NCBI RefSeq assembly: GCF_036046055.1
Contig: NZ_CP107939.1
Span: forward strand, 6,696,001 to 6,760,000
Direction of reading: 5' to 3'
DNA from: Nocardia sp. NBC_00403
GTDB lineage: Bacteria > Actinomycetota > Actinomycetes > Mycobacteriales > Mycobacteriaceae
Length of the DNA stretch: 64,000 nt
Shown here: piece after piece, positions 10,618 to 39,246 of the stretch
Layout: each line of letters starts with the position of its first letter
Position numbering within the stretch: the stretch's first letter is position 1
Translations under genes and position numbers: made by a program
Notes under the pieces: generated by a model
What the model saw: only the letters and a program-made list of their open reading frames with translations
What the model was told of the DNA's origin: nothing
The model's database searches: none

Positions 10618-10630
10618 TATTCTCGGTGCC

Positions 10631-20636: not shown

Positions 20637-21191
20637 ATGTCCGAGGAACTGGACGACATCGGCCGGGAAACCGCGGCCATGGTAAAGACTATGTTGCAGC
20701 TTGCGACCCTGGTCGCGCTGCGGGCCCGTGAACGTGGTCAGAAAGAAGCCGAAGCGCGCGTCAAGGTCACCGAGGCCCGCAACAAGGAAGCCAGAGAGCT
20801 TCAGATCCGTGAGGCTCGCGACGCCAAGGCCAAAGATCCGCGCAACCTGGAACTGGCCAGAATGGTCGAGAAAACGGTGCCCGCCAAGGGAATCTCCTTG
20901 GAGAAGGACCGATTCGCGGCACAGGCCGAAGCCAGCCGCATGGCCGCCACCGCCTCCGCCGCAGCCAAGCCGCTCGTCCGTTACGACTCCGCCGAACGGC
21001 GCACGGCCATCGCGGCCCACCTCGCCAGGATCGGCATCTCACCGGAGTTGGCGGCAGTACGGATGCTCATCGAGGTCGGGCAGGCGCTGCCACCGGAAGA
21101 AGCGGTCCGCGTCCGTAATGAAGAGGCTCGAGCGACCGCGGCCAGGGGCCGGGAGCAGGAATCCCGCGGCCTGGAGCGCGTCCGACAGTAA
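20637..21191 (+). CDS. Highly charged coiled-coil protein of unknown function
   Basis: A 184-residue soluble protein with ATG 20637 and a GGGGAG ribosome site. Residues 25-80 form a continuous charged helix rich in Lys, Arg, Glu and Ala (coiled-coil-like), and the rest is also mostly helical. No family was recognised. It faces the secretion-like operon tail to tail, separated by a strong terminator. Actinobacterial conjugative regions often carry such charged accessory proteins, but no link is shown by the sequence. Confidence 0.6.
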   Translation: MSEELDDIGRETAAMVKTMLQLATLVALRARERGQKEAEARVKVTEARNKEARELQIREARDAKAKDPRNLELARMVEKTVPAKGISLEKDRFAAQAEASRMAATASAAAKPLVRYDSAERRTAIAAHLARIGISPELAAVRMLIEVGQALPPEEAVRVRNEEARATAARGREQESRGLERVRQ

Positions 21192-21198
21192 GCCACGA

Positions 21199-21227
21199 GA
21201 AACGCCCGCTGATCCAGCGGGCGTTTC
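21199..21227. terminator. Bidirectional intrinsic terminator
   Basis: A perfect 13-bp stem (GAAACGCCCGCTG and its complement) with a three-base ATC loop, with A residues on one flank and T residues on the other. It separates the coiled-coil gene from the 3' end of the long secretion-like operon and can serve both. Confidence 0.92.
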
Positions 21228-21271
21228 GTCATTCCGCGGACCGGTATGTCCGCTGCGCCTTCAGGATTCGC

Positions 21272-21658
21272 TCACATTCGGAAGTCGCCGACGGTCGGAT
21301 CACCGAACAGCCCCTGGGCCGGGGACTTCAGCGGCAGCGGGCTCAGCATGTCCTTGTGCCCGTTGCGCACGCTGCAGTACTTGAACGGCCCACGGGGATC
21401 GAACAGTTTCGTCATATGCGGGTCGGCATGGTCGAGGAACCACACGCTCAGCCCGGTGCTCGGCTGCAGCCGGTAGTGCTCCCACGCCCGCCACAGCGCA
21501 TCCAGCCGCGCCACCGCCTCGGCATGCTTCCACCATTCGGGGCACCACACCGTTTCACTGATGTCGGTCACCTGGCGGCGGTAGACGAGACTCAGATAGT
21601 TCTCGACGAATTCCACCACGCTGGTGTGAATCATCGGCTGTTGCTGCTGTTCGGTCAC
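21272..21658 (-). CDS. DUF4913 family protein
   Basis: A 128-residue soluble protein, start GTG 21658 overlapping the stop of the VirD4-like gene by four bases (GTGA). The Trp-rich core (WCPEWWKHAEAVARLDALWRAW, then GLSVWFLDHADPHM) is characteristic of DUF4913, a small family found next to conjugation genes in actinobacteria. Function is unknown. It is the last gene of the operon and is followed by the strong terminator at 21199-21227. Confidence 0.8.
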   Translation of the reverse strand: MTEQQQQPMIHTSVVEFVENYLSLVYRRQVTDISETVWCPEWWKHAEAVARLDALWRAWEHYRLQPSTGLSVWFLDHADPHMTKLFDPRGPFKYCSVRNGHKDMLSPLPLKSPAQGLFGDPTVGDFRM

Positions 21659-23481
21659 AGCGGCCGGACCTCCTCGGATTGGCCGTATTCAGGTGGTGGA
21701 GTGACCTTGGTCAGCGAAGGTGAGCCGATCAGGTCGATGATTTCGGTCTTGCGCCCCGGGAGATGGTGCTCGATCGACTTCTTCACGTCGGCAGAGTACT
21801 CGCCCTCCCACCAGGGCACGGTGCGGACCAGCACCGCAGGCTGGCCGGAGGTGAAGACGATCGCACGGCCCTGCGGCAGGGTTGCCAACCCGTGCGCGGT
21901 GAACGTCTTCGACGAGCCGAGCGAGCGCGAATAGCTCTTGCCGCCTTTGGATTCGGAGACCGAAGAGGACACGGCATCGTATTCGCCGATCGCCTCGGAG
22001 CGGTCCCGCAGGAAATTCATATCGTCCACACCGGGGCCGAGCACCTTGACGTTGGCCGCCGACCACAGCGCGAGCATGCCGGCGTCTCCCCAGCAGCGCG
22101 CACCCTGGGCCCAGGACTGCAGCACCGTCATCACCACGATGCCGCGCGATCCGAAGTGGCTGTACTGCTTGGGCAGATCCTTCCAGCGCACCACGTTGGC
22201 CGCCTCGTCGAGCACGGCGAGCATCGGAATGGGCAGGCGACCGCCCGGCGAGCGCGACGCCTTACGCATGGCCACGTCGATGACGGCCTCGGTCAGCGCA
22301 CTCACCAGGGGCGCCGCGGAGCCGCGACCCTCCAGCGAGAGGCTGTAGAGGGTGCCGTTGGCCTCGAGGAAGGCGAGTTCGTCGAACTGCTCTCTGTTGT
22401 CGCCGGGCAAGATCCAAGAGTGCACGTTCGACAGCTGCAGACACCGGATCATCTTCTTCGCGGTACCGAAAATGCCACTCTTGGTTCGCGGATCGGCGTT
22501 GTACTGCATGGCAAGACCCGAGGCCGTGTAGTGCTTGCTGGCATTGCGCAGCAGCTCGATGGGCTCGGAGTCACCGGGGTTGGTCACCCAGTCCCACACC
22601 TGCACGATCGGCAGGCCGCCGAGCGCCGCGGCCAGGAACAGACCGGCCAGCAGATCTTCGGCCTCCGGGTCGAAGAACACATCCGACTTCGTGGAGTCCG
22701 AACCGTTGTCGGCGTCGGCGAAGTGCCCGGCCAGTCGCGCGGCCCGCATTTCGGCGCCGTCGTGGTGAGCATCCACCCAGGCCAACGGATCCCAGTACCA
22801 GGTGGGTTCCTCGCCCGCCACGCCCTGTGGGTCGAAGACGAATGTCGGACTTCCCTTGGCCTTGCGCACATCCCGGGTCGCGTCCACCACGTCCCGTTTG
22901 TTGGAGGTGGCAAGGACCGGACCGATCGCGGTCAGGATCGCCGGGATCACCCGTGAGGTCGACTTGCCCTGCCGCGGACCCCAGATATCCAGGTGCAGGT
23001 CCTCGTAGGAACCGTAGAGCATCACCCCGTCGGCGACACCGATGCCGATCGGCACACCGGGTGCGTCGTTGTAACCGAGACGCACACCGAGCGTTTCGGC
23101 CTTGGCCCGCACGCCTGCCTCGGTGAGCGAGGCGATGGCGCTGCCGTTGCCCATCACATCGGCCTTGTCGTCGATGGCCAGGCGTCCTTTGCCCTGGCGC
23201 TTCTGCAACTGCTTGCGCACGTAGAGGTAGACCAGTAAGAGCCCGATCACCAGCAGCACGAGGACCGTGGATGCCCGCGGCCAGTGCAGTTTGCCGCGGG
23301 CGAGGTCGGCGACGATGGCGATCGGATTGATCGGGACGTCCTGGCGGGTGACCGCCATCGCGTTGCCGAGATGCAGTGCGATCCACAGAGTCCCGAGGAT
23401 CGCGAAACCGGCGTAGATCATGTACAGGGTGACGTCGGGCCCGGCTATGGCCGGATCCTGCACCTTCTTCTTCTTCGCCAT
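21655..23481 (-). CDS. VirD4/TraD-like type IV coupling ATPase
   Basis: A 608-residue membrane ATPase of the TraM-recognition/VirD4 family, start ATG 23481 with GGAGG upstream. Two N-terminal transmembrane helices (about residues 18-38 and 70-88) precede the motor domain with Walker A GPRQGKSTS at about 168-176 and Walker B MLAVLDEAANV near 420. Proteins of this family recruit DNA-protein or protein substrates to type IV channels. Its presence shows that the machine had a substrate-receptor ATPase, but no relaxase gene is nearby. Confidence 0.9.
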   Translation of the reverse strand: MAKKKKVQDPAIAGPDVTLYMIYAGFAILGTLWIALHLGNAMAVTRQDVPINPIAIVADLARGKLHWPRASTVLVLLVIGLLLVYLYVRKQLQKRQGKGRLAIDDKADVMGNGSAIASLTEAGVRAKAETLGVRLGYNDAPGVPIGIGVADGVMLYGSYEDLHLDIWGPRQGKSTSRVIPAILTAIGPVLATSNKRDVVDATRDVRKAKGSPTFVFDPQGVAGEEPTWYWDPLAWVDAHHDGAEMRAARLAGHFADADNGSDSTKSDVFFDPEAEDLLAGLFLAAALGGLPIVQVWDWVTNPGDSEPIELLRNASKHYTASGLAMQYNADPRTKSGIFGTAKKMIRCLQLSNVHSWILPGDNREQFDELAFLEANGTLYSLSLEGRGSAAPLVSALTEAVIDVAMRKASRSPGGRLPIPMLAVLDEAANVVRWKDLPKQYSHFGSRGIVVMTVLQSWAQGARCWGDAGMLALWSAANVKVLGPGVDDMNFLRDRSEAIGEYDAVSSSVSESKGGKSYSRSLGSSKTFTAHGLATLPQGRAIVFTSGQPAVLVRTVPWWEGEYSADVKKSIEHHLPGRKTEIIDLIGSPSLTKVTPPPEYGQSEEVRPL

Positions 23482-23523
23482 GTCTGCCTCCTGTCGGGAC
23501 CGTGCGGTGTGGTCTGCGCTGGA

Positions 23524-24183
23524 TCAGCGGTACGCGTCGAGCCGCCAGCCGTCCGATGTGCGGACGACGGTGGCGATGACCGTGGCGGGCGGCAGCTTTT
23601 CCTTGCGCCCGTTCGGGTAGACGACCGTCTGCTCGATGCCGATCTTGAATTGTTGGATGTTCGGGTCCGCGCCTACCGGCGGCTTGTCCCCGGACGCGAA
23701 GGTGAACGCCTCCACGCGCGCCTTCGCTGTGGCCCACTGCGCCCACTGCAGTGTCGCCTTCGGCGTCTCCAGCCCGGTCGGGACGCTGTCCAACATCCGA
23801 ATCATGCTGGGGCCCAGCCATTTCCTGGCCCGAGTCAACGAGGCGCCCTGATCCTCGGTGGCAGGATGCCAGGTATAGATCTCCTTCAGCGCGGCAACCG
23901 CGACACCATCCGGCGTCACCGGGTCGGGTGCGGGCACCTCCTCCAGCAATCGAGTCGTGGACGTGGGTGGGTGTGACACACCGGAATTCACGTCGCCACC
24001 CTCTCCACGACCGCAGGCGGCACCAAGCATCGCGACGCTCACCACCAGCATCACCACCAGTATCGCGCGGGCTTTCACTTTGTCATTCAAGACTAATCGG
24101 TCATTCAAGGCTAACCGCCGTGACCGACACGTGGGCGCTCCGACAGCCTCCGGAGCCTGGGTGTGTTCACTCCCGCTGCTCAC
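23524..24183 (-). CDS. Lipoprotein with NTF2-like/VirB8-like ectodomain
   Basis: A 219-residue protein whose GTG start at 24183 overlaps the preceding stop by four bases. An unusually long N-terminus of about 36 residues contains a small repeat (LALNDR, LVLNDK); it is followed by a hydrophobic segment and a lipobox LGAAC with Cys57. A later start near GTG 24078 would give a normal lipoprotein signal. The ectodomain is about 150 residues, mixed helix and strand (ATVIATVVRTSDGWRLDAY), resembling the NTF2-like fold used by VirB8/TcpC-type proteins; that is inference. It lies just upstream of the coupling ATPase gene. Confidence 0.65.
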   Translation of the reverse strand: MSSGSEHTQAPEAVGAPTCRSRRLALNDRLVLNDKVKARAILVVMLVVSVAMLGAACGRGEGGDVNSGVSHPPTSTTRLLEEVPAPDPVTPDGVAVAALKEIYTWHPATEDQGASLTRARKWLGPSMIRMLDSVPTGLETPKATLQWAQWATAKARVEAFTFASGDKPPVGADPNIQQFKIGIEQTVVYPNGRKEKLPPATVIATVVRTSDGWRLDAYR

Positions 24184-25865
24184 AGTACCCTCCTGGCTCG
24201 CGCGTCTCCGGGCACCGCGACCTGGGTCACGCCGCCGCGCGAGCGCGCCTCCGCACCTGGCACCGACTGGATCATTCGTCCATTGCCGGAATAGATTCCG
24301 ACCTGCGCGGGACCCCGCGGGCCGAAGGCACTGAACACCAGATCACCCGGCGCCAGTTTGCCCATCGGCACCTCGACACCCGCCTCCCACTGCTGTTCGG
24401 CGGTCCGCGGCAATGTCACGGTCCCGGAGGAGGCCGCGAACACCGCCGCCGAGGTCAAGCCGGGACCGTCCAGACCGCCACCGCTGGGTCCCTGCGGACC
24501 ACCGCCGCCCCAGACATACGGCTGACCGAGCCATTCGTGCGCGGCCTCCACGATGTTCTCCCCACTGGACCCACCCTTCGGAGTGAAGCGACCGAGCGAG
24601 CCCGGCGCCCGGTACTGCGGCTCCATCGCGAGGATGTTCGCGACATAGGGCTGGGTCTCGGAGTAGTGCGCCGCCACCTGATTCGGCATGCCGCCGGAGG
24701 CGAGCACCGCGCCCTCACCTGCGTTGTAGGCGGCCAGGGTCAACGCGGTGATGTCGCCGTGCACGCGCCCCTCGGCCTGCCAGGCCATGATCTTGTGCGC
24801 GATGGCGCACATATAACGGCCCTGGCCGACGATCGCATCGCCGTCGTCCCACACGCTGGCAACGCCGTTGCCATCGGCGTCGACGACATACGGGCGGCCG
24901 TCGTCGGGGTTCGTGCTCGCCGCGGTGCCCGGCAGGAACTGCGCGAGGCCCTGCGCACCGGCCGGTGAGTTCGCGCCGCGCTGGAATCCGGACTCCTGCC
25001 TACCCTGGGCAGCCAACAGCGACGGGGTGATCTGCGGGCACAGCGAGCCCGCACGGCGATACCAGATTTCGAGCTCCGGGGGCACCTTGCCCGCGGCCAG
25101 CGCGCCGCCTGCGGTGCCGAAGCCACGGCTGCACCGCGGATCGTTCGAAAACGCCCGCGCACCACCGACATCCGGCGTCGGCGCACCGTCGAGCCACGGC
25201 AGTGGGTCGATTTGACGCCCCCCGGTGAAGCGGCCGCCCGGCACGATCTCGAAATGCAGATGCGGACCACTGGATTCACCCGCCGAGCCCACCTGAGCGA
25301 TCGGCTGGCCCGCGGTCACCGTGTCGCCGACGCGCACGTGCACACCGCTGTCCCACATGTGGCCGTACACCGCCGAATACGAGCGGCCGTTGGTGTCGAC
25401 CGAGTCGACGACGATCCAGTTGCCGAAACCCGATGCGGGACCGGCCGCCACAACGCGGCCTTCGGACACCGAGTAGATCGTGGTGCCGTCGGTGGCGGCC
25501 AGGTCGACGCCGAGATGAGCGCCGCCGCGCGCACCGAACACATCGGACACGGTGAAGGTGCCCACCGCCAGTGGCAAGGTGCGACGGATCGGCCCGCTAC
25601 CGGCCGCGAGCGACGGCGTCCCGGTAGCGGTCGGGTTCGTCTGCGTCACAGAAGGATTCGTTGCCGTAGAGGTGGCGATCGAGGCTGCGGCGCGGGGATC
25701 ACCCGGCGCGAAACCACCCAGCGACGGCAGGGCGGTCTGCGACGGCCCGAGCACCGAGTAACCCTCACAGTCCTCATCCACCGCGGGCATCACGATCACT
25801 ACGACAAGGGTCATCAGCGCCAGCACCGCGCCGAGGGCAAACCAGAGGATGGAGCGGCCGGTCAC
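24180..25865 (-). CDS. Three-domain cell-wall hydrolase: M23 peptidase + lytic transglycosylase + NlpC/P60-like domain
   Basis: A 561-residue protein with one N-terminal transmembrane helix (about residues 7-27). Residues about 95-210 are an M23/LytM peptidase with all zinc ligands (His117, Asp121, His202/His204 in HLHFE). Residues about 262-425 are a lytic-transglycosylase domain with catalytic Glu291 (GRQESGF). The last 115 residues are an NlpC/P60-type domain (AHEWLGQPYVWGGGGP), but the expected catalytic Cys is Gly467 (LDGPG instead of FDCSG) and the expected His is Gln521 (QVGIY instead of HVGIY). The enzyme should open peptidoglycan for the secretion machine; the third domain is probably a binding or structural module. 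Confidence 0.88.
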   Translation of the reverse strand: MTGRSILWFALGAVLALMTLVVVIVMPAVDEDCEGYSVLGPSQTALPSLGGFAPGDPRAAASIATSTATNPSVTQTNPTATGTPSLAAGSGPIRRTLPLAVGTFTVSDVFGARGGAHLGVDLAATDGTTIYSVSEGRVVAAGPASGFGNWIVVDSVDTNGRSYSAVYGHMWDSGVHVRVGDTVTAGQPIAQVGSAGESSGPHLHFEIVPGGRFTGGRQIDPLPWLDGAPTPDVGGARAFSNDPRCSRGFGTAGGALAAGKVPPELEIWYRRAGSLCPQITPSLLAAQGRQESGFQRGANSPAGAQGLAQFLPGTAASTNPDDGRPYVVDADGNGVASVWDDGDAIVGQGRYMCAIAHKIMAWQAEGRVHGDITALTLAAYNAGEGAVLASGGMPNQVAAHYSETQPYVANILAMEPQYRAPGSLGRFTPKGGSSGENIVEAAHEWLGQPYVWGGGGPQGPSGGGLDGPGLTSAAVFAASSGTVTLPRTAEQQWEAGVEVPMGKLAPGDLVFSAFGPRGPAQVGIYSGNGRMIQSVPGAEARSRGGVTQVAVPGDARARRVL

Positions 25866-25956
25866 CGCGACACCCGCACAGCCGGATTCGACACCCGTCG
25901 AGGTGGATTCGGCACTACCCGCGTAGGCCGCAGCAGGCCCCGCACGCCGGGGCAGG

Positions 25957-26265
25957 TCACCGTTGGCGCCGGGATTCGTTGAGGGTGTCGGCGAGGGTGC
26001 GATTCATTTCGGCGGCCGCAGCCAATTGCTGTTGCAGCAGTGCCACTTTACGGCGCAGCGCGGTCGCGTCCAGCCGTTCCAAGCTCGGTCCTTCGGCGGC
26101 GCGCACCCAATTGCGCACCGAATTCGTATGCACACCGATCTGTTCGGCGACCACCCTGCATGCCTCCGATTCGCTGCGCAGCTTGCCGGTCAACGCCATG
26201 ACCTGCGCCACCGCGGCATTGCGCACCTCCGGCGACACTCTCCGATAGGACCGATGCGGCATCAC
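25957..26265 (-). CDS. Small helix-turn-helix protein resembling IS3 OrfA
   Basis: About 102 residues. It has an N-terminal helix-turn-helix (YRRVSPEVRNAAVAQV, then VHTNSVRNWVRAAEG) and a C-terminal leucine-zipper-like helix (LRRKVALLQQQLAAAAEM), the layout of IS3-family OrfA. No OrfB/integrase partner and no inverted repeats are next to it. The start is uncertain: GTG 26265 or ATG 26262, both behind GGAGG; a longer version from ATG 26304 is possible. It lies inside the operon, 61 bases after the VirB4-like gene, so it is probably a domesticated DNA-binding protein rather than part of an insertion sequence. Confidence 0.65.
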   Translation of the reverse strand: MMPHRSYRRVSPEVRNAAVAQVMALTGKLRSESEACRVVAEQIGVHTNSVRNWVRAAEGPSLERLDATALRRKVALLQQQLAAAAEMNRTLADTLNESRRQR

Positions 26266-26326
26266 GCGGCCCACCTCCAGCTCGCACGCACAGGTCTGCA
26301 CCATCTCGCGACCGTCGCACCAACTC

Positions 26327-28693
26327 TCATGCGGCACTCCCGCCCGGCGAATTCGAGCCACGCGTGGTGGATTCGGTGAACTCACTGAACCGCTGATTGG
26401 TGTCGTGGATTCCACTTTCCTTCTCCGAGAGGGTGAACTCCATATGGAATGGGATGCCGGGCCGACGATCCTCACCGATTTTCAGGAGGAACTTGCCGGT
26501 GCCCGGTGGTGACGGCCGTTGCTGGCCGGGCTTGAGCGCCTCGCCCGTCAGCGCTTGCGGTGCGGACCATCCGGTCACCATCTCCTCCTCGGCGGATGTG
26601 AACGGAATGGTGCTGTCGAGGCGTTTGATCTCTTCGCCTGGCAGCGCGCCGAAGATCTTGGCGCGCGCCCGCTCCAGGAAACCCAGTGCCTTGGCAATCG
26701 CCGCTTCGGATCCGAGTGCTTGCAGGTCCTTGATGGTGTGGCTGATCATGATCAGTGCGGTGCCGATGCCACGCTGCAGGCGGGTGAGCTCGTCGACCCG
26801 GTCGATCATGAAGTCGCCGAGGCCGAGCACCTGCCACAGCTCGTCCATCACCACCTGGAAGTAGCGCTGCGCGCCGAGTTCGGCGTCGGCGAGCACGTGT
26901 GCGGCCTCCACCGAGGCGAATCCGTCCGCCCAACAGGCCAACATCACGGCGGCCTTGAGCTTCTTGTCGCCGGTGGGGATGTGCGAGACGTCGATGCAGA
27001 CCGCGACCGCGCCGGTGTCGATCGGCACCGTGGTCTGGCCGTTGAAGATCGCGCCGAACGGGCCCTGAGTGAGCGCACGCAGGGACCGGCGGAGCCCTTT
27101 GATCGAGACCTGGTACTCGTCGGGGTTGTCAGCGCCCGCGTCGAGCATCAATTCCTCACCGCCACCGACGATCACCTCGAGCAGGTTCTCCATGATGGGC
27201 GGCTGGTCGGGGGTGTAGCCGCTGCCCGGCCGGTAGAGCACGCGCAGCGCGGTGGAGATCAGTGTCTCCTCGTAGTCGCGCACCCGCGCGCCGCGCACCA
27301 ACTCGACCAGACCCGCGACCAACGTCACCTGCCTGGCCCGCAGATCCTGCAGCACCTGGGTCTGCAACGCAGGCAGCGCGTCCAGGCGCGGCACCACCGA
27401 ACCGAGCACACCCGCGGCGAGCGGATTGAGTTTGCCGTGCCCGTAGCCGAGGTCGATCACCTGGCCGCCGACCAGTTCCACCATCTTGCGGTAATCCGGT
27501 TTCACATCGGCGAGGATGAGCGGGGTGATGCCCTGCGCGATGCCGCCGAGCACGATCCGGCGCACCAGCGAGGACTTACCGAAACCATTGAGCCCCAGGA
27601 CGAAAAGGCTCGGTGCGGTGATGAAGCTGCCGCGCATGAACCAGTTCATCGGGTCGAAGCACACCGGCGCGCCGGTGTGCAGGTGCGATCCGAGCGGGGT
27701 GCCGATCAGCGGCGCGCCCGCGCCCACCGACCACGGCCACAGGCCCGCGACCTGGGCGGTGGTCGCCCGGTATTCGACCGGGCGACCGACCACGTTCATG
27801 CGGCCGCCGCCCGCACCTGCGTAGCCGCGATCGGTGAGTTGCGCAGTGCTGCGGTCGAATCCGTCCTCGAAGGTCTGTTCGGCGCGGGCGGCGTAATTGC
27901 GGCGTCGGATCTCGTCGGTGCGCAACCGGAAGGTCGCCCACGCCGCGCGCAGCCCCGTCTGCTCGCGGCTGATCCCCTCCAGCCTGGTCCTCGTGACATC
28001 GTCGAGCAGCTGCGGACCGGACTGTTTGCGCCTGTCCGCCTTCAGCCTCGCCCGCTCCATCTGGGGCGTGCCCATTGCACGGTCGGCGACCCGGTCGGCC
28101 TTGACCGGTCGCGCCACACCACGACCGATCCGCTCGCCCCTGGCGCCGACGCGATCCGCCGTTGCGCCGGTCCGCTGAGGCGGTACCGGCCGATTGCTGC
28201 GCACCGGACGTTCGCCCTCGCGCGGGCGCGGCGGCCTGCCCTCGGCACGATCCGCGGAAGTGCGCTCGCCACGACCGTTCTCGGCATGGGGCCGATCGGC
28301 GCGCGCACGGTCGGTGTGCGCCCGCTCGGGACGTACGCCGTCGGCGCGACCGGCTCCGGCCCGGGCGCGACGCTCCGCCGCATCCCGCGCCGAACGCCGT
28401 TCCCGATCGGCCATTTCCTCCAGGCCCGACCGATCGTCGCCGGTCACCCGCGCCGCGTCCCGTGCGGGGCGACGCGGACGGTCGGGTATTTCCTCCAGGC
28501 CGTTGCGTTCGCCGCCACGCGGCCTCGTGCCATCCGCACCGCGGCCCCGCGCGGTTTCCCCGGCAGGACGCTGCTGGGGCGCATCGACCGCGGGCCGGTG
28601 TGCCCAGTCGTGCTCCCCTTCCGGCTGCCGTGTGCCGCGGCGAACCGGCGTCCCGTCCCGTTCCCGTACGGGTGGCTCGTAGTCACGTGCCAT
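26327..28693 (-). CDS. VirB4-like type IV secretion ATPase
   Basis: A 788-residue ATPase, start ATG 28693 (MARDYEPPVRERDG) with GGTGAG upstream. The first 200 residues are highly charged and disordered (Arg/Asp/Glu/Pro repeats such as RPARDAARVTGDDR). A core of about 550 residues follows with Walker A GLNGFGKSS near 368 and Walker B VVMDELWQV near 616, the VirB4/TraC arrangement. VirB4 ATPases energise assembly and transport of type IV systems. The charged tail is much longer than in canonical VirB4 and may bind other cytoplasmic components. Seven bases separate it from the SCO6880-family gene. Confidence 0.88.
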   Translation of the reverse strand: MARDYEPPVRERDGTPVRRGTRQPEGEHDWAHRPAVDAPQQRPAGETARGRGADGTRPRGGERNGLEEIPDRPRRPARDAARVTGDDRSGLEEMADRERRSARDAAERRARAGAGRADGVRPERAHTDRARADRPHAENGRGERTSADRAEGRPPRPREGERPVRSNRPVPPQRTGATADRVGARGERIGRGVARPVKADRVADRAMGTPQMERARLKADRRKQSGPQLLDDVTRTRLEGISREQTGLRAAWATFRLRTDEIRRRNYAARAEQTFEDGFDRSTAQLTDRGYAGAGGGRMNVVGRPVEYRATTAQVAGLWPWSVGAGAPLIGTPLGSHLHTGAPVCFDPMNWFMRGSFITAPSLFVLGLNGFGKSSLVRRIVLGGIAQGITPLILADVKPDYRKMVELVGGQVIDLGYGHGKLNPLAAGVLGSVVPRLDALPALQTQVLQDLRARQVTLVAGLVELVRGARVRDYEETLISTALRVLYRPGSGYTPDQPPIMENLLEVIVGGGEELMLDAGADNPDEYQVSIKGLRRSLRALTQGPFGAIFNGQTTVPIDTGAVAVCIDVSHIPTGDKKLKAAVMLACWADGFASVEAAHVLADAELGAQRYFQVVMDELWQVLGLGDFMIDRVDELTRLQRGIGTALIMISHTIKDLQALGSEAAIAKALGFLERARAKIFGALPGEEIKRLDSTIPFTSAEEEMVTGWSAPQALTGEALKPGQQRPSPPGTGKFLLKIGEDRRPGIPFHMEFTLSEKESGIHDTNQRFSEFTESTTRGSNSPGGSAA

Positions 28694-28700
28694 GAATCGC

Positions 28701-30197: not shown

Positions 30198-31660
30198 CGC
30201 GGAATGGTGCTCCTCCCGAGGTCGGGTGAACGATTGGCCCAGCGGTCGCCGGCCACGTCACCCATTGCTTGATCGGCCCCGGTCAGCGGAGCGGTCATGG
30301 CGCGCGCCGCGCCGACCCGGCCCGCCGCTCTGGCCGCACCGGACGGTACTCCCGCCGCGCCCGCGGGCCCGGAGGCGCGCGGTGCGCCGCCCGGGGCGCC
30401 ACCGCCACCGCCACCACCGCCACGTGGTGGGGCCGGACGCGGACCGGCGCCACCGCCGCGGGTGGGCGGCGGACTTCCCGCACCGCCGACGTAGCCCGCC
30501 GAGCCAGGAGCAGCCGCGCTCTTGACCGCAACGGCCTTGGTACCCATGGCCCCGAGACCCGCGACGGCGAGCAACGTACCGCCGGTCGCGGTGAGACCGG
30601 AACCGCCGCTACCGACGACCGCGATCGCGGGCGTGACAAGGCGCATCAGTGCGGGCAGCACGAACGCGACACTGCAGAGCAACACGATGGCGACCAGCAT
30701 GCGTTGTGCCTGTTCGCCTTCGGGCAGTCCGGAAGTGTCGGTCAGCGAGTCCACATGACCAGCGGTGGTGAACGCGATCATGTAGACGATGGCCGCGACC
30801 GGTTTCCACAGCATGAACGCGATGATCCAGCCGACCAGCTTCTGATACGACGTCTTACCGACGTTCATCCCGGAAGCCGCTGCCGCCAAAGGCAATACGC
30901 CCGCAGCGATGATCAGCAGACCCTGCCTGACGATGGCGAGGATGATCTGCGCGAGCGCGCCGAGCAGTCCGACGATCGCGATGATCAGCACCAAACCCGG
31001 CGAAAACGCCTGCAGTTTACTGGTTTTCACCATCAGCTCAGCCAGGTCCTTGGCGTTGCCATCGGTCGAGTCGTTGATGATCCACTCGGAGAACTTGTCC
31101 GAAGCCTGGGTGCCCGCGACGATCACGGCGCCGAGCATCCACGAACTGAACACCACTCGGGCGAACATCCGGAACGATTCGGCCGCTTCGTTCATCGCGG
31201 CGCCGCGTCTGGCCTCGGCCAATCTGGCGCCGGAGAGGATCACCGAGGCTATCAAGAGCAATATCTGTACCTGATAGGTGTAATCGTTGATCTTGGTGAA
31301 CAACGACCCCCCATCGCTGGCCACCTCGTTGGGCACCTTCATCCAGAACGTCAACGCCAGAATGATGGCCTCGCCGAGGCCCTTCATCAGCGAATCGACG
31401 ACCTTACCGAAGGTCGAATCCCAGGCCTTGTCCTTGATCGCGTCGGCCGCGCTGCGGGGATGCGAGGCGGCATTGCCAGCCTTGCACGCGGCCGAAGCGG
31501 CGTCACCGAGCGAGATCCCGGGCAGACCGACGTTGTCGAGAGTGTCGTGCAGTTCGTTGCACGTCTCGTCGAAACCGTAGGTCTGACCGTAGGCCACGGT
31601 CGGCGTCGCGATCATCACCGTGAATATGACCGCGAGAATTGTGAAGACACGCCTCACCAT
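30194..31660 (-). CDS. TrbL/VirB6-like polytopic channel protein
   Basis: A 488-residue membrane protein starting at ATG 31660 (MVRRVFTILAV), which overlaps the upstream stop by seven bases in the same ATGGTGA arrangement seen one gene earlier. Residues 1-24 are a signal peptide ending near AYG-QT; at least six hydrophobic helices follow between about 95 and 375. The C-terminal 110 residues are Gly/Pro/Ala-rich, with a run of glycines. This layout is typical of TrbL/VirB6 inner-channel proteins of Gram-positive type IV systems. Cysteines after the signal peptide (CNELH and AACKAG) may form a disulphide. Confidence 0.8.
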   Translation of the reverse strand: MVRRVFTILAVIFTVMIATPTVAYGQTYGFDETCNELHDTLDNVGLPGISLGDAASAACKAGNAASHPRSAADAIKDKAWDSTFGKVVDSLMKGLGEAIILALTFWMKVPNEVASDGGSLFTKINDYTYQVQILLLIASVILSGARLAEARRGAAMNEAAESFRMFARVVFSSWMLGAVIVAGTQASDKFSEWIINDSTDGNAKDLAELMVKTSKLQAFSPGLVLIIAIVGLLGALAQIILAIVRQGLLIIAAGVLPLAAAASGMNVGKTSYQKLVGWIIAFMLWKPVAAIVYMIAFTTAGHVDSLTDTSGLPEGEQAQRMLVAIVLLCSVAFVLPALMRLVTPAIAVVGSGGSGLTATGGTLLAVAGLGAMGTKAVAVKSAAAPGSAGYVGGAGSPPPTRGGGAGPRPAPPRGGGGGGGGAPGGAPRASGPAGAAGVPSGAARAAGRVGAARAMTAPLTGADQAMGDVAGDRWANRSPDLGRSTIPR

Positions 31661-32514
31661 TGTGTCCACCCCTCGATGCTTCGCAGGGAATCAATCTGGA
31701 CTTGCTGTTCGCCGCTCACCGCGGTGAGCTTCCAATCTCCGTCGCGCCACACGACTGCCAGGCGCATGCCCACCCATGTTGGTTGGCCATCAACTGTTTC
31801 TCGGGCCTTTCTCGCAAACTGAATGAGCGCGGTTTCTTCTGTGTAGCTTTCGATTCGGAAGGCGTCCGAAGCGAACAGCAGTGGTCTCAGCTTCTCCGGC
31901 AGTCGATCCGACACCTTCCCCTCGGCGACCAAGCGGTCGTATTCCGCCAAATACTGTGGCGTGACCTGGACCAGGCGCACCAGCATCTCCCGGTCCCGCG
32001 GATTCGCGTTGGTGCGCCAGTAGATCTGCTCAGCCGCCAGTGCGGCCCCCTGCGGTGTATGGGCGAATCCGACCGCGGCCTTACCTTCGATGCGTGCCGG
32101 ACCATCGGACGTCGAGAACCGCACCACGGGGCCACCGAATACTCGCTGCCACACGCCTTCTCCGCTCGCAGGCCGCGGCGCGGCCGTCAACCAACCAGGT
32201 GCGTCGGACTGCAGCTGCGCGGCCGGATTCTGTTCCAGCGCAACACCTGCCGGGCTGTCCGGGATATCCACCCCGCGGCCGAACACATCGACATCCGACT
32301 TGCCGAATCCTGCCGACCCGTTCGGATTTCGGACGGGAGCACGCTCCGAGCTGGTGCCCGTCTTCGACACCTGGTCACCCTCTGCGGCATTGTTGCGGAC
32401 CGCACCCACGGTCACCACGACCGCGATGAGCACCGCCAGCACCGCGCCGAGACCGACCAGCACCAAGGGCGAACGCTTACGCTCCGGTCCGGATCCGGGC
32501 CCTACCGTTACCAT
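31654..32514 (-). CDS. Single-pass protein of a tandem paralogous family (copy 3)
   Basis: A 286-residue protein starting at ATG 32514 and overlapping the preceding gene by seven bases. A short charged N-terminus and a transmembrane helix at about residues 17-39 anchor an ectodomain of about 245 residues. The core WQRVFGGPVVRFSTSDGP, AVGFAHTPQGAALAAEQIYW and the C-terminal IEGWTQW are shared with the next gene (32508-33320), showing a tandem duplication. A bitopic protein at this operon position suggests a VirB8/TcpC-like scaffold. No established family name was recalled with confidence. Confidence 0.75.
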   Translation of the reverse strand: MVTVGPGSGPERKRSPLVLVGLGAVLAVLIAVVVTVGAVRNNAAEGDQVSKTGTSSERAPVRNPNGSAGFGKSDVDVFGRGVDIPDSPAGVALEQNPAAQLQSDAPGWLTAAPRPASGEGVWQRVFGGPVVRFSTSDGPARIEGKAAVGFAHTPQGAALAAEQIYWRTNANPRDREMLVRLVQVTPQYLAEYDRLVAEGKVSDRLPEKLRPLLFASDAFRIESYTEETALIQFARKARETVDGQPTWVGMRLAVVWRDGDWKLTAVSGEQQVQIDSLRSIEGWTQW

Positions 32515-33320
32515 TTCGTCCACCCCGCCAGCGATTCGATGTATTCGGTCTGTGCGCTGTTGGAGGTGGCGGGCTTGAGCCGCCAGTCCCCTGCGTCCCA
32601 TACCATCACCAGTCGCAGCGCGGCCCACAGCTGCTTGCCATCGACAACGGGCCCGCGCGAGGCGAGCCGAATGATGGCGAGGTCGTCGGCGTAGTTCTCC
32701 ACCTTGAACGCATCGGAGGCCACGAAGTACTTGGTCACCTTCTCCGGCTGCTGTTGCGGCAGCCGGTCCTGCGACAAGGCCTTGTCGTAGGCGGCGATCT
32801 GCTGGGCCGAGACCCGCACCTGACGGACGTACAGATCGCGGTCGGCGGGCCTGGCATTGAGCCGATAGGTGATCTGCGCCGCGGCGAGCACCGAACCCTG
32901 CGGGGTATGCGAATAGCCAACGGCGAGACCGTCTTCGATGCGCGTGGGTCCGTCGGAGGTGGAGAACGGCACCGAGGCGCCGTACACCCGCTGCCAACCA
33001 TGTGGTGTGGCCGTGCCGATCGGCGCCGCGGTCAGCCAATCCGGGTCCGAGGACTTGCGCTGATCGCTCGGTTCCTGCGGAAGTGGTTGTCCGGCAGGGT
33101 TGTTCGGCACATCGAGACGCCTGCCGAAGATGTCGATCTCGGGTTCGGCGAATCCCTCAGCACCCGAACCCCCGGACGCGGCCGCCCCACCGCTCGAACT
33201 CGAATCATCGCGGCCCAGATACACGACGAGACCGACGATCACGATGAGTGCGAGCACCGCGGCCGACGCGACGGCACCGAAGGAGACGCGATCGCGTGCG
33301 TACGACTCCTTCTCGGTCAC
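32508..33320 (-). CDS. Single-pass protein of a tandem paralogous family (copy 2)
   Basis: A 270-residue protein starting at GTG 33320 (MTEKESYARDRVSF) behind GAGG. A transmembrane helix at about residues 14-36 and a Ser/Gly-rich linker precede an ectodomain clearly homologous to the next gene: WQRVYGASVPFSTSDGP, AVGYSHTPQGSVLAAAQITY and the C-terminal LAGWTKW. Both copies share the DIFGR/DVFGR box just before the ectodomain. Two related bitopic subunits could form a hetero-oligomeric scaffold around the channel; this is inference from paralogy and context. Confidence 0.75.
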   Translation of the reverse strand: MTEKESYARDRVSFGAVASAAVLALIVIVGLVVYLGRDDSSSSGGAAASGGSGAEGFAEPEIDIFGRRLDVPNNPAGQPLPQEPSDQRKSSDPDWLTAAPIGTATPHGWQRVYGASVPFSTSDGPTRIEDGLAVGYSHTPQGSVLAAAQITYRLNARPADRDLYVRQVRVSAQQIAAYDKALSQDRLPQQQPEKVTKYFVASDAFKVENYADDLAIIRLASRGPVVDGKQLWAALRLVMVWDAGDWRLKPATSNSAQTEYIESLAGWTKW

Positions 33321-33393
33321 GACTCCACCTCGCCGGCACACGGCTCCGTCATGCCCGAGGGTCGCGGCGACATGATTCGCTCGCTGCGCTCCC

Positions 33394-34101
33394 TCATGTA
33401 GGTGCCTCCAATTTCACAATGTCGGTGGGCAATTCGTCGACCGCCTCGATGGGACGTGCGGCCGATTCCGGGTCGGGCAGTCGTAACCTCCAGTCGTTGC
33501 CGAACCACTCCACGATGGTGTGATTCACCGCTCTCGAGTTGTCCGAATATTCGGTGTAGACGTCGACGCCGGACTTCTGATCGGTGTAGTCGGTGATCTT
33601 GTAGCCGAGCAGCCGCGGCGCGTATTCGGCCGAAGCGGGCCCGGTGATCGACAACTGCACACGGTTGACCGACCACTCGTCTCTGGCCCGGCCCGGCACG
33701 ACTTCCATGGCAACCACTTTCGACCACTGGTTGTCCGCGGCTACCGACAATCGCACGGTGTGGACGATCGCGGCGAGCGCTGCGCCGGGCGGTGAATGCT
33801 CGAAACCCATTGCGGCACCGTCGGCTTCCTTCTTCGGACCTTGGTCCGCGTGTGGCAGTGCCACGCCTTGGAACGGCTGCCAGCGCAGTTGCGTCGGCGC
33901 CGCGGCCAGGTCGGGGCCCGACTCGCCGTCACCACCGCAACCGACCGCGGCCATCAGCAACGCGACACCGACCGCACCCGCGGCAGGCCGGCGGGCGCCC
34001 CACCGCGACGCGCGGGCGGGCTGTCGGGTCGCGATATGCTGCGGACGCGTCGCTGTGGATTTCATCGCAGGGCCGTTCCTATCCCCATACCGGTCGTTCA
34101 C
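33394..34101 (-). CDS. Lipoprotein distantly related to the tandem paralogues (copy 1)
   Basis: A lipoprotein of about 235 residues from GTG 34101, which overlaps the upstream stop (GTGA), or 223 residues from ATG 34065. The signal has an Arg-rich N-region and the lipobox AAVGC. The mature part begins with a short linker; the ectodomain shares the box AMGFEHSPPGAALAAIVHTV with the (H)TPQGA box of the two following genes and ends with a similar GNDWRLRLP strand, so it is a diverged third member with a lipid instead of a helix anchor. Confidence 0.7.
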   Translation of the reverse strand: MNDRYGDRNGPAMKSTATRPQHIATRQPARASRWGARRPAAGAVGVALLMAAVGCGGDGESGPDLAAAPTQLRWQPFQGVALPHADQGPKKEADGAAMGFEHSPPGAALAAIVHTVRLSVAADNQWSKVVAMEVVPGRARDEWSVNRVQLSITGPASAEYAPRLLGYKITDYTDQKSGVDVYTEYSDNSRAVNHTIVEWFGNDWRLRLPDPESAARPIEAVDELPTDIVKLEAPT

Positions 34102-34382
34102 GTCGGTAGGAAGGCCAGCGCGATCCCGGACGCGGTGCTCGCCACCGATGCGCCGAGCAGGCTCATCAGCACGCCGTGCGAGGCGTCGTTCATCGCGAGA
34201 TCGCTGCGGAATGCGATCCACAACCGGCCCGCGGACACGATCATCCAGGCGAGGCATACCAGCAGCACGAACCAGAGCAGCCAATTCAGCAGGTGCATCA
34301 GAGGTTGCAGCACCTCGGCAGGCATCTGCTTGTAGGCGAGCACCTCGCCTGCCGACATTCGCACGGTAGACATCGCCCGCAT
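34098..34382 (-). CDS. Small two-helix membrane protein
   Basis: A 94-residue protein with ATG 34382 overlapping the preceding stop (TGATG). Two hydrophobic helices (about residues 32-53 and 72-91) are separated by a short polar loop. Size and topology suit a VirB2/TrbC-type pilin or a small channel subunit, and the preceding gene encodes a similar protein. No sequence family was recognised. Confidence 0.65.
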   Translation of the reverse strand: MRAMSTVRMSAGEVLAYKQMPAEVLQPLMHLLNWLLWFVLLVCLAWMIVSAGRLWIAFRSDLAMNDASHGVLMSLLGASVASTASGIALAFLPT

Positions 34383-34678
34383 CAGGTGCCGATGACGGCG
34401 TTCATGATGGTGCCGGCGCTGGTGGCGACCACGCCGCCGATCATGGCTCCCGCCACCATCTTCGGCGACTCGAGCCCACCACCGGTCCACTTCTCCCACG
34501 CGAACTTGCCGCCCGCGTAGGTGATGCCGCAGACCCCCGACAGCAGGACGAACCAGGTGAGGTACCTGACCAGCTGCAGGATCTTCTCCGAGCCGGGAGG
34601 CGCCTCCGGTGTCGGGTTACCGACTTGAGCGAGGACAGTGCCGTACGTGTCCTGCACGGCGAGGAGGATCGTGCTCAT
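34382..34678 (-). CDS. Small two-helix membrane protein, VirB2-like topology
   Basis: A 98-residue protein starting at ATG 34678 with GAAAGG upstream. Two helices lie at about residues 37-57 and 76-97, separated by GKFAWEKWTGGG. The spacing and the small Gly/Ala-rich second helix are reminiscent of VirB2/TrbC pilins. It is translationally linked to the next small membrane protein, and both precede the tandem bitopic proteins, a common order in Gram-positive type IV operons. Confidence 0.65.
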   Translation of the reverse strand: MSTILLAVQDTYGTVLAQVGNPTPEAPPGSEKILQLVRYLTWFVLLSGVCGITYAGGKFAWEKWTGGGLESPKMVAGAMIGGVVATSAGTIMNAVIGT

Positions 34679-34738
34679 CGGGTGCCTTTCTCGAAAAAGT
34701 GTGCTGTCAACGGTCCGGTACGGCGCTGAATATCAACA

Positions 34739-35380
34739 TTATTCTGGCCCTTCGTCGAATGATGAAGCGGCATCCAGGTTTTCGCGCACCGCTGCAACGA
34801 TGTCGGTGCCGAGTTCCCGGACTTCGAGTGGGACCTCCTCGAGTGGGTCGATCTTTCGCTTCTTCTGCGGGAGTGCGTCACCCGGCGCCCACACCGGCAA
34901 TTGCTCCGGCTCGACGAGCGTCCACTCCTCGTACCACGGCACTTCCCACACCTGGCCTGCCAGCGATCCGACCACCTCGCGGTAGCGCCGGATCTCGGCA
35001 GGCAACCGGCCGGGCCGGGCCGCGACCGTGATGAGTCCGAGTACCTCGGCGGCGCCGGCGAACCCCGAATGATGTTGGCGCAGTAAGTCATGGGCGCGAG
35101 TCAGTCCGGCGATGGTCTCTCTGGCGACCAGGACGACGAAGGGCGATTCGCGGTCGAAGACGCCGGGCCAGCGGCGGCCCGAATCCGCCGCGGGCGCAAG
35201 CACATGCGCGAGGGTACTGGCTCCGGCACCACCGTGCACACCCAGCAACCACACCAGTGGCGCCCTGCCGATGCCCGGCACCGGACGTTCCCAGATCAGG
35301 GCGCGACGCGACTCCGGCGGCGCGACAACGCCGGCTTGCGCAGGCTCGGGTTGACGACGAAGTTTCATAGCGGCGGTCAT
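34739..35380 (-). CDS. DUF6668-like ParA-fold protein without P-loop lysine
   Basis: A 213-residue soluble protein; ATG 35380 overlaps the stop of the ParA-like gene by four bases. After a 45-residue Pro/Ala/Arg linker, the read WLLGVHGGAGASTLA aligns with the deviant Walker A of ParA/MinD proteins but lacks both conserved lysines (GGAGAS where GGxGKT is expected). The C-terminal tail is acidic and basic in blocks (PQKKRKIDPLEE). The DUF6668 assignment is from memory. It may be a degenerate NTPase that regulates or partners the adjacent ParA-like protein. Confidence 0.65.
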   Translation of the reverse strand: MTAAMKLRRQPEPAQAGVVAPPESRRALIWERPVPGIGRAPLVWLLGVHGGAGASTLAHVLAPAADSGRRWPGVFDRESPFVVLVARETIAGLTRAHDLLRQHHSGFAGAAEVLGLITVAARPGRLPAEIRRYREVVGSLAGQVWEVPWYEEWTLVEPEQLPVWAPGDALPQKKRKIDPLEEVPLEVRELGTDIVAAVRENLDAASSFDEGPE

Positions 35381-36261
35381 GATGCCACCCCGGCCAGCAG
35401 GCGCGCATACGCCCGGCGCGTCTCCGCGGCCAGCGACGTGTGCCGGACGAGTTCACCGCGGGCCAGGTGCGGGTCGTACGGAATCTCCCTGATGTCACGG
35501 ACCCAACCGGAAAGATGCGAACGCAAATGATCGGCAACCCGCGACTCGCCGCCCGGCTGCTGGTGTGAGACAACGATCGTCGTGTCACCGACGATGCCGC
35601 TGCCCTGTCCATCCGCGGAGTCGCCGAACTGGTCGTCGAGCCATTCCAAGGTCACCCGCAGCCGGTTGGCAGCGTCGGCGCGCGCCGGAATGGCAAGCAC
35701 CAGAGCAACATCCGAGTCGTCGAGCAGCGGGCGCAGCTGACGCCCGGCAATCGGGCTGCCACCGTCGTAGACGCCGGTGAAGCCTGCGTCGTAGATCGCC
35801 CGCGCCACGGTCAGATAGGTGGCCCTGCGACGCAGCGGCGCGGCATCGCGCCACAGCAGCCCGACCCCCGAGCTCGCCTGGGACATGCACTCCTTCAACG
35901 GCGCCGGCTCGTCGTTGCCACGGCCGTACAACCACGATTGCAGGCTGATCGGGTACAGGTGCTCGTCGGCGCCGCGCAGCGCGAGATCACTGCCCGCGGC
36001 TGTCGAGTCCACCGCGACCGTAGGATTACCCCCCAGCGCGAGCTCGCCCGCGATCCCGAGCACCGTCGTTGTCGTCCCCGCGCCGCCGCAGCCGCCGACC
36101 ACCAGAATCGGCCGCTGCGCGGGTTCCACGGCCTCCACACCGCTCTCCGCGCGCTTACCGCGCCGTAACCGCACTACCGGAGCCCTCGTGCGCGTAGGTC
36201 GGCTCGCCGATTCGCCCTCTGCGGGCGCCTCGTCGAGCCAGCGACTCCAGTCCTCTCCCAT
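35377..36261 (-). CDS. ParA/MinD-like protein with atypical P-loop
   Basis: A 294-residue protein starting at ATG 36261 with AAGGAG upstream. The first 50 residues are charged and disordered; the ParA-type fold begins at RPILVVGGCGGAGTTTTVLG, where Thr takes the place of the expected P-loop lysine, and includes the switch-like VAVDSTAAGSDLALRG. Related proteins occur in actinobacterial conjugative and type VII loci. It may position the machine or its substrate at the membrane, but whether it hydrolyses ATP is doubtful from the motif. Confidence 0.75.
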   Translation of the reverse strand: MGEDWSRWLDEAPAEGESASRPTRTRAPVVRLRRGKRAESGVEAVEPAQRPILVVGGCGGAGTTTTVLGIAGELALGGNPTVAVDSTAAGSDLALRGADEHLYPISLQSWLYGRGNDEPAPLKECMSQASSGVGLLWRDAAPLRRRATYLTVARAIYDAGFTGVYDGGSPIAGRQLRPLLDDSDVALVLAIPARADAANRLRVTLEWLDDQFGDSADGQGSGIVGDTTIVVSHQQPGGESRVADHLRSHLSGWVRDIREIPYDPHLARGELVRHTSLAAETRRAYARLLAGVAS

Positions 36262-36277
36262 CGCCTCAGCTCTCCTT

Positions 36278-37273
36278 TTATCCGGCCGCGATACCCGTGA
36301 TGAGGGTGCGGCCGTCGACCACCGCTGTGGTGACCGTCTGCTTGTTGTACGTGGCGGGCACACCGCCGGGCCGGTACTCGGTGATCTCCACCGAGTACCG
36401 AGTGTCGGTGAGCGTCACGATGCGCACACAGTGCGTGGTGCCCACCGGGATGGAGTCGATACCGCGCTGGATCACCGACGCGGGCGAGACGGTGGCCTCG
36501 GGCGCGACCGCTGCCCTGGCCCGCTCACCGGAGCGTTCCACGTAGTAGCCGTACTGGAACGACAGCACCGCATCCGGCCCCGACGCAGTGCCGCCGGATT
36601 CGGCGCTACGCACCACGCGATCAGCACGTTCGGTGGGGCAGGCGCCGGCCGCGCTCGCACCGGTGCCGGGTTGCGGTCGAGTCGCGTAGACCGGCTTTGC
36701 GCCGATGTCGTCGGCTTGGACGGTGCCCGCGGCGAACTGCAGGGGCGAGGACGTCGGACCGGCCGCGCCGCGATCGTCGGAGGAGTCCAGCAGGAACAGC
36801 ACAACCGCCACGGCCGCACCGAGCAGCACCACCGCGACGATCAGCACCGCGATCACCCTGGCGCGGCGTGCGGCCGGATGATCGCGAGCCTCCTGACGCA
36901 GTGCGCGCGAGGCCGCCGCGGCGGCCCAATCCGCGCGGTCGTTGTCGAATTCGTCCTCTGGCCACGGGAAGCGCACGACGCCACCATCCAGCGGCGGTGG
37001 GTAGTCGTCGTCGGGGCCGGGTGCGCGGCCGGACACCCAGTCCGACCAGCCACCGATGAATTCGCTACGGCCCGACGGGAGATCGGTCGGCACATCCGCG
37101 CGGGCTCGGATCTCGTCGGGATCGTCGTCGAGAATGTAGTGCGGATATCGCGCGGGCCCATCGTCGTCGAGGACGGAAGCACCCACTTCGTCTGCGTGGG
37201 CCGGGGCGGCCGAGCCCGTCTCCGGCTCCAGCGGGCCGTACCAACGCGACAGCTGTTTGTACGACTTCAACAT
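36278..37273 (-). CDS. Bitopic membrane protein, first gene of the secretion-like operon
   Basis: A 331-residue protein with ATG 37273 directly behind a G-rich ribosome site. Residues 1-139 form an acidic cytoplasmic region, residues 140-162 a transmembrane helix, and residues about 175-331 an ectodomain with two cysteines (CPTERAD and HCVRIV). It resembles families annotated DUF8176 next to actinobacterial conjugation genes, a low-confidence recollection. It begins 54 bases downstream of the cutinase-family gene, so the latter may share its transcript. Confidence 0.65.
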   Translation of the reverse strand: MLKSYKQLSRWYGPLEPETGSAAPAHADEVGASVLDDDGPARYPHYILDDDPDEIRARADVPTDLPSGRSEFIGGWSDWVSGRAPGPDDDYPPPLDGGVVRFPWPEDEFDNDRADWAAAAASRALRQEARDHPAARRARVIAVLIVAVVLLGAAVAVVLFLLDSSDDRGAAGPTSSPLQFAAGTVQADDIGAKPVYATRPQPGTGASAAGACPTERADRVVRSAESGGTASGPDAVLSFQYGYYVERSGERARAAVAPEATVSPASVIQRGIDSIPVGTTHCVRIVTLTDTRYSVEITEYRPGGVPATYNKQTVTTAVVDGRTLITGIAAG

Positions 37274-37327
37274 TCCCCCCGTCCCGCGGAGCGAGGCACA
37301 TGGCGCATCGTCAGACCCTCTCGGCGA

Positions 37328-38962: not shown

Positions 38963-39246
38963 AGCGATCCGCAATCATCCGTGTTGCCGCAGCCATCCTC
39001 AACGCCATGAAACGCACTAAACCGTAACAGAATCCGGCAAACATCGCTGAGCCCGCGAAAACTTTCCGGGAACCGCCGGACGATCCCGGACACAGCTTGG
39101 CGTGGCGTGCCGGACCTGCCGACAACTTTCCGATCATGAGCAGTCGAAGGCAATCCACGGCGACCCCCGGGGACTCGAATCATCAACCCGGACTTCGCAT
39201 TCCGGCGAAGGCCCGACCGGCGCGAACGCTTTGCCCGAAAAATAGC
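38963..39246. other. Intergenic region upstream of the cutinase gene
   Basis: About 280 bases between the cutinase gene start and the relA terminator. It must hold the promoter for the cutinase gene and perhaps for the secretion-like operon. No clear -35/-10 pair, operator or attachment repeat was identified. Confidence 0.4.

Follow-up and report, generated by a model that had tools for sequence, protein, structure and literature searches.

Whether the type IV secretion systems (T4SSs) of Gram-positive bacteria have evolved into dedicated effector translocators is a long-standing question, according to the available part of a 2025 review (PMC12857230), which names the Streptococcus suis 89K system as the first such translocator and then the systems of the Patescibacteria. 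A near gene-by-gene counterpart of the system described here is formed by the T4SSs of the Rhodococcus plasmids pCP1 (NZ_CP088907) and pKNR (NC_012523), from a cutinase gene through to an open reading frame (ORF) resembling one that we call orf184. The system itself occupies positions 21272–37273 of a 64,000-nucleotide stretch of Nocardia sp. NBC_00403 (NZ_CP107939.1, positions 6,696,001 to 6,760,000; the window, hereafter), as a run of 16 T4SS genes, all on the minus strand. All sixteen genes of the original prediction, which had been made from the sequence alone, are present, and its placement of them between ppiB and relA is borne out by the conserved locus across the genus. The extent that it gave to the unit did not stand, since the cutinase gene at the head (37328–38974, minus strand) and orf184 beyond the tail (20637–21191, plus strand) belong to it too; relatives of both occur in plasmid T4SSs.

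The resident locus and the two plasmids share a cutinase, bitopic protein, ParA-like protein, DUF6668 protein, small membrane proteins, scaffolds, TrbL-like protein and SCO6880 family protein, together with VirB4, a helix-turn-helix protein, wall hydrolase, VirD4, DUF4913 protein and the orf184-like ORF. The SCO6880 proteins of pCP1 and pKNR are 63% and 53% identical to the resident one, and pCP1 has extra genes between the hydrolase and VirD4, including one of the thermonuclease family. The operon most likely starts with the cutinase gene, because the homologous pCP1 operon bears a cutinase near its head and then keeps nearly the same order to DUF4913. The plasmids, however, encode replication or partition functions as well as a relaxase accompanied by MobC. 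None of these is present in the resident locus, where orf184 is also inverted. In 8 of the 12 plasmid regions compared (pCP1, pKNR, NBC_01327, Hoyosella, Dietzia, Corynebacterium faecale, Streptomyces canus and, with MobC only, Amnibacterium), the annotation places a relaxase or MobC gene on the opposite strand no more than 4 kb downstream of DUF4913; the other four have neither in the stretch seen. When 22 distinct ORFs from the interval 20637–38974 were scanned against Pfam, a few of them proving to be wrong-frame ORFs, no relaxase and no integrase were found, which agrees with the absence of both claimed earlier for the locus. The sole mobile-type match was a TnpA-like helix-turn-helix domain at 25957–26262, and such a gene is also found inside plasmid T4SS clusters. 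This comparison shows the relaxase module that lies near most plasmid relatives to be missing from the predicted gene content of the resident locus.

The machine is found throughout most of the genus. Among the matches listed, a SCO6880 ortholog of 89–98% identity was present in 111 of 128 genus genomes and a VirD4 ortholog of at least 66% identity in 126 of the 128, counts that include a few partial matches. For most of the 17 genomes in which no SCO6880 ortholog was found, true absence was considered and rejected: of nine relA contigs inspected, eight have machine genes that run to the end of the contig or close to it, usually breaking off within the TrbL gene, so that most of these absences look like assembly gaps. 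For the other eight genomes, the evidence of the machine is the VirD4 ortholog. Draft assemblies were often seen to break in or near the TrbL gene, beside GC-rich sequence (approximately 28000–29000 and 30194–31000 of the window), and the machine therefore seems absent in gene searches. Gene order is kept in 20 fetched loci, which were picked for contiguity. In a survey of named Nocardia loci, which used the 48 of 80 that were at least 21 kb long, the detected machine genes keep their order and strand in all 48, except that the cross-matching paralogs numbered 11, 12 and 13 are disordered in six. In these 48 loci ppiB was found in 45, VirB4 in 46 and relA in 39, two of the latter on an unexpected strand. 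Comparison of the ppiB–relA interval across Nocardia, as the original prediction had suggested, thus finds the machine conserved at the same locus without a relaxase, and its presence is genus-wide at a fixed site and not strain-specific.

A second genus of the family, represented by genome G157, also carries the machine between relA and ppiB. The relA of G157 is 83% identical to that of the window, whilst some genera without the machine reach 87%, and this suggested at first sight that G157 was merely a horizontal recipient. The relA tree, however, puts G157 beside Nocardia (support 91/83, on a long branch), and common descent of the two machines is therefore favoured by the sequence data. 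In the relA comparison, 30 relA loci of 60 genomes with a match were used, three from genus members and one from G157; in 23 of the other 26 family loci ppiB lies within 1.5 kb of relA, so that the junction is closed in most of them, and in the remaining three ppiB was unseen in a short flank. A copy at least 88% identical occurs in 30 of 301 family genomes, namely 29 genus members plus G157, and no further copy exceeds 63% identity. In the SCO6880 tree, the residents, G157 and four database sequences of 86–89% identity form one clade (99/95), which adjoins copies of 76–77% identity. One of these belongs to genome G043, which has a second chromosomal T4SS, with an SCO6880 protein 77% identical to the resident one and a MobF relaxase 41 kb away.

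The DNA distances of 12 genes track those of relA over 17 loci (r 0.39–0.77), with either none or one of 500 permutations as high. Over seven pairs, dN/dS is 0–0.37 for the machine genes, and 0.01–0.05 for SCO6880, which is close to the 0–0.04 of relA, and the machine genes are under purifying selection. Taken together, these comparisons show what is predicted to be a T4SS of the actinobacterial SCO6880 type being inherited with the chromosome, between ppiB and relA, in Nocardia and G157. The best reading is that a conjugation machine was domesticated before the radiation of Nocardia; the machine is almost certainly, on this evidence, resident and domesticated, and there is a high likelihood that it is active.

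As to what it does, the best explanation appears to be a domesticated conjugation machine that has been retained to export non-relaxase cargo, of which protein is the most likely kind, and we give this a probability of roughly 0.6. This lean towards export, and towards protein as the cargo, comes from the genomes in which the machine is kept without a MobF or Replic_Relax relaxase. Among the matches listed, 39 of the 128 genus genomes have no MobF; 18 of these have a Replic_Relax match and 21 have neither, and the VirD4 ortholog is present in all 21. Two single-contig genomes among the 21 (G088 and G104) also gave no PF03432 or PF03389 match. The presence of a coupling protein suggests a cytoplasmic cargo; such a protein is found in most protein-secreting T4SSs, with exceptions such as Ptl, in the available text of one study (PMC12102498). 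The cargo would most likely be protein, or else DNA that no classical relaxase has processed, and the balance tips slightly towards protein as the main cargo. The fuller proposal, of a relaxase-free T4SS in Nocardia and its related genus that is dedicated to protein export through the mycolic-acid envelope and crosses it by means of a wall hydrolase of its own and, in most cases, an esterase, is put forward tentatively, at a little under even odds.

Several observations weigh against export of non-relaxase cargo by a domesticated machine, and some of them would also suit the main rival, in which the resident T4SS is a shared conjugation engine for DNA that relaxases from elsewhere in the genome have prepared, be it that of plasmids, of mobilizable elements or of the chromosome. 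The coupling protein is retained together with the DUF4913 protein and orf184, and the latter two lie near the relaxase module in plasmids and would also suit a DNA cargo. MobF occurs somewhere in 89 of the 128 genus genomes among the matches listed, the window genome included. The relaxase families searched were MobF, Replic_Relax, and PF03432 and PF03389 (MobP/MobQ), the last two in 10 genomes only, and two of the 21 relaxase-negative genomes are less than 90% complete. Neither the SCO6880 nor the VirD4 ortholog was found in G054, a genome in 1,340 contigs, and no machine gene lies within 4 kb beyond its relA. The G157 locus gave no cutinase, ParA-like or helix-turn-helix match. Among the 48 named loci, the hydrolase was not found in 8, the cutinase in 16 and a lipoprotein-like gene (33394–34065) in 14. 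In G113 the SCO6880 gene is read in two overlapping frames (approximately 9922–11414 of its stretch), which is either a sequencing error or a broken gene.

The absence of relaxases predicted for the locus holds only in part for the whole window genome, where profile searches gave no PF03432 or PF03389 match but did find one MobF and a partial Replic_Relax match (36 bits, 41 of 191 positions). This MobF, the only one, is an ORF of 1797 amino acids at 3,220,730–3,226,123, some 3.5 Mb from the locus in a defence-gene island, and the genome has only one SCO6880 and one VirD4 match, which again would suit a shared engine. The MobF neighbourhood (3205000–3244800) contains a NACHT protein and an OLD-type ATPase followed by a P-loop ORF, a pair which we take to be Gabija-like, and none of the eight neighbouring ORFs scanned is a T4SS gene. 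Streptomyces and mycobacteria are, moreover, described as moving chromosomal DNA by non-classical routes (PMC12857230, in the part available). Against a shared engine stand the 21 genomes without MobF and Replic_Relax that all keep the VirD4 ortholog, and the distribution of MobF around SCO6880 copies, since by eye, among the matches listed, MobF lies within 100 kb on the same contig for 14 of 39 non-resident copies but for none of the 111 resident ones. A shared conjugation engine is therefore regarded as unlikely, although it is the foremost alternative.

Nocardia, like Streptomyces, grows as a mycelium, and the machine could be developmental, acting within the mycelium in hyphal growth, septation or chromosome segregation, with any transport being local. 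This is the role suggested by the Streptomyces Cmd cluster, which is chromosomal and conserved, with VirB4-like, SCO6880-like and SCO6881-like proteins, and whose null mutants have sporulation, aerial-hypha and antibiotic defects with no effect on transfer of an SLP2-derived plasmid, in the available part of that report (PMC2782261). Nocardia, however, keeps a coupling protein, a wall hydrolase and often a cutinase, whereas Cmd is described there as five membrane proteins and one ATP/GTP-binding protein, and a developmental or envelope role of this kind seems improbable. A DNA-uptake machine in the manner of Helicobacter ComB would need no relaxase, but the ORFs scanned at the locus included none for competence, and we give it very little weight. 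ComB, moreover, is not known to have a VirD4-type coupling protein, whereas one is kept here. Least credible of all is an ordinary integrative conjugative element (ICE) or its decaying remnant, which would fit the plasmid-like gene set and the components lost or moved in part of the genus, but is opposed by several findings: the machine stays at one site in the genus and G157, its distances are congruent with those of relA, its genes are under purifying selection with the ATPase motifs intact, and neither an integrase among the scanned ORFs nor a border repeat was found. A strain-specific ICE is ruled out by genus-wide synteny and by the same lack of an integrase or att repeats.

The individual genes, all on the minus strand unless stated otherwise, can be arranged into a working scheme for the favoured exporter. 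The VirD4-type coupling ATPase (21655–23481; Pfam TraG-D_C 102 bits and T4SS-DNA_transf 80 bits, both over the cut-off), with the DUF4913 protein and orf184 at the docking end, would collect cytoplasmic cargo. Assembly and transport would be powered by the VirB4-like ATPase and the SCO6880 family protein. The former (26327–28693) has a long charged N-terminal region and matches VirB4 in the Protein Data Bank (PDB; 4ag5, E 0.0012), as well as the NCBIfam VirB4 model at 48 bits, which is far under that model's cut-off. The SCO6880 family protein (28701–30197; NCBIfam 567 bits) is predicted to have two membrane helices before a VirB4 N-terminal-type fold; its modelled fold matches that of the N-terminal part of VirB4, and a PDB sequence search with it found nothing convincing. 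Both ATPases have intact Walker motifs in every one of 22 resident loci, and the comparison supports an envelope-spanning machine with what would be working motors. The coupling ATPase, VirB4-like ATPase and SCO6880 protein of the original prediction were all upheld by these matches, as was its wall hydrolase, described below.

The operon's last gene encodes the DUF4913 protein (21272–21658; PF16259 137.7 bits), which follows the coupling protein as it does in plasmids and is found in 48 of 48 named loci. Convergent to the operon is orf184, on the plus strand, which encodes a helical protein and is likewise found in all 48. It first seemed confined to Nocardia, as tblastn gave no plasmid matches, but this was ruled out by profile matches after DUF4913 in plasmids and in an ICE-like element: pCP1 (E 9.5e-11), the G115 ICE-like element (E 3.3e-8) and, weakly, pKNR (E 0.0035), with G157 at E 8.7e-40. 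Among the 120 matches listed in a homolog search, the named ones were Nocardia and one labelled Streptomyces. In the plasmid and ICE-like relatives, the orf184 relatives follow DUF4913 on the operon's own strand; the resident gene is inverted with respect to these. The relative in the G115 element (1758–4622) is a much longer protein, both ends of which match orf184, and resident orf184 may be a shortened form of a longer protein.

The channel would consist of the TrbL-like, bitopic and small membrane proteins. The genes that the original prediction labelled TrbL-like, pilin-like and scaffold-type are present; the TrbL-like label draws on a sub-threshold TraG_N match, position and a multi-helix sequence, and the pilin-like and most scaffold labels on size, position and the look of the sequences. 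The TrbL/VirB6-like multi-helix membrane protein (30194–31669; TraG_N 21.7 bits, below the cut-off) precedes SCO6880, as in plasmids. Next to it are two paralogous bitopic scaffold proteins, both with trimmed starts. The protein at 32508–33320 carries DUF8175 in database entries (PF26526, precomputed on homologs), with no match in the Pfam copy searched here and no PDB sequence match, and that at 31654–32514 cross-matches with it and has no Pfam match; a VirB8-like role is inferred for both. The lipoprotein-like protein at 33394–34065 (approximate start) is by its cross-matches a distant paralog of this pair and was detected in 34 of the 48. Small pilin-like membrane protein 1 (34382–34678) has no Pfam match and 81–99% identity in 48 of 48 named loci, and protein 2 (34098–34382, trimmed start), labelled from its size and sequence look, is equally widespread. 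So are a 331-amino-acid bitopic scaffold protein (36278–37273), with the highest dN/dS among the machine genes (0.18–0.37), and a lipoprotein-like protein of 219 amino acids (23524–24183). For several genes, the true starts give products shorter than the longest ORFs.

Peptidoglycan would be opened by the VirB1-like wall hydrolase (24180–25865), which by Pfam has M23, SLT and NlpC/P60 domains and was found in 40 of 48 named loci. The NlpC/P60 catalytic cysteine is absent from all 19 resident hydrolases found and present in all seven mobile ones found, in a motif table that covered 22 resident and 18 mobile stretches, the mobile set including two views of one plasmid; the M23 and SLT motifs are kept in residents. 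It is possible that this loss marks a changed use. The mycolic-acid layer would be loosened, where the gene is present, by the putative secreted cutinase/Culp6-like esterase that is the first product of the operon (37328–38974; PF01083 57.9 bits; sequence matches to PDB 5w95 and 3aja; detected in 32 of the 48 named loci). The gene sits near the head of homologous plasmid operons, and a cutinase is annotated in seven of eight plasmid regions of mycolic-acid bacteria and in none of four other plasmid regions. It is not an obligatory T4SS part in mycolic-acid bacteria, since it was not found in a third of the resident loci surveyed (16 of 48). An envelope-crossing role for a cutinase has been proposed for the Rhodococcus equi plasmid pRErm46, and a cutinase is cited as promoting conjugation of a R. 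fascians plasmid, in the same partly available source (PMC6794481). In G072 and G011, which belong to one clade, the hydrolase gene has its place beyond relA, and a cutinase was not found. The position that the cutinase would take, between relA and the machine, is filled in G072 by unrelated genes for metabolic proteins and kinases.

The helix-turn-helix protein encoded at 25957–26262 (trimmed start; HTH_Tnp_1 27.1 bits on a longer ORF) is a possible regulator, with 82–95% identity in 48 of 48 named loci. Two adjoining genes encode ParA-like proteins without the P-loop lysine: a DUF6668 protein (34739–35380; PF20373 29.9 bits, over the cut-off), with DUF6668 genes at the same place in plasmids, and a ParA/MinD-like protein (35377–36261, trimmed start; CbiA 14.4 bits, below the cut-off), in which the lysine is absent from all 21 resident copies found. 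The two form a pseudo-ATPase pair in residents and mobile relatives alike, and P-loop decay as a sign of domestication was ruled out, the mobile relatives also being without the lysine.

At the borders, ARAGORN found no tRNA gene in the window, and the longest exact direct repeat was 11 bp, against 12–14 bp for eight control pairs of the same size elsewhere in the window; the lack of a tRNA target and of border repeats had been claimed before on the sequence, and both claims survive. A terminator-like hairpin with a 13-pair stem and T-rich tail, a consensus match only, lies between relA and the operon (39247–39275, minus strand), in a region with five such sites compared with a shuffle mean of 7.7, so that they are not above shuffles.

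Patescibacteria belong to another phylum and are not known to have a mycolic-acid layer, and their systems are compared with that of Nocardia by description only. They are nevertheless alike in that the Patescibacteria T4SS is lineage-wide, of monoderm type, mostly without relaxase and thought to be co-opted from conjugation, as described in the available part of that work (PMC12102498). The S. suis 89K system offers a Gram-positive T4SS with evidence of protein secretion (PMC12857230, available part), although, again by description only, it is on an island of one species and not genus-wide. The Bartonella VirB/VirD4 system, a T4SS with a coupling protein, likewise arose from conjugation and serves to export protein (PMC5675462, available part), but is a Gram-negative machine with known effectors, here set beside that of Nocardia by description only. 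Streptomyces cmdABCDEF (SCO4126–4131) resembles the locus as a conserved chromosomal cluster of VirB4-like and SCO6880/SCO6881-like proteins with a non-conjugative role; it has six genes, and the available text, to which the comparison is confined, mentions neither a coupling protein nor a wall hydrolase or cutinase (PMC2782261). The parts of the machine are therefore known, as are mostly relaxase-less T4SSs (Patescibacteria), protein secretion (S. suis 89K) and a related developmental chromosomal cluster (Streptomyces). In the open-licence PMC literature searched, no report was found of a T4SS fixed between ppiB and relA in Nocardia, and what is new, within that literature, is a coupling-protein-bearing T4SS fixed at this site throughout the genus. 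With a relaxase-less machine conserved at a single locus in so many species of Nocardia, the question of Gram-positive effector translocators becomes directly testable; the machine, if it is dedicated to protein export, would add to these known systems a lineage-wide effector-type T4SS in a Gram-positive group.

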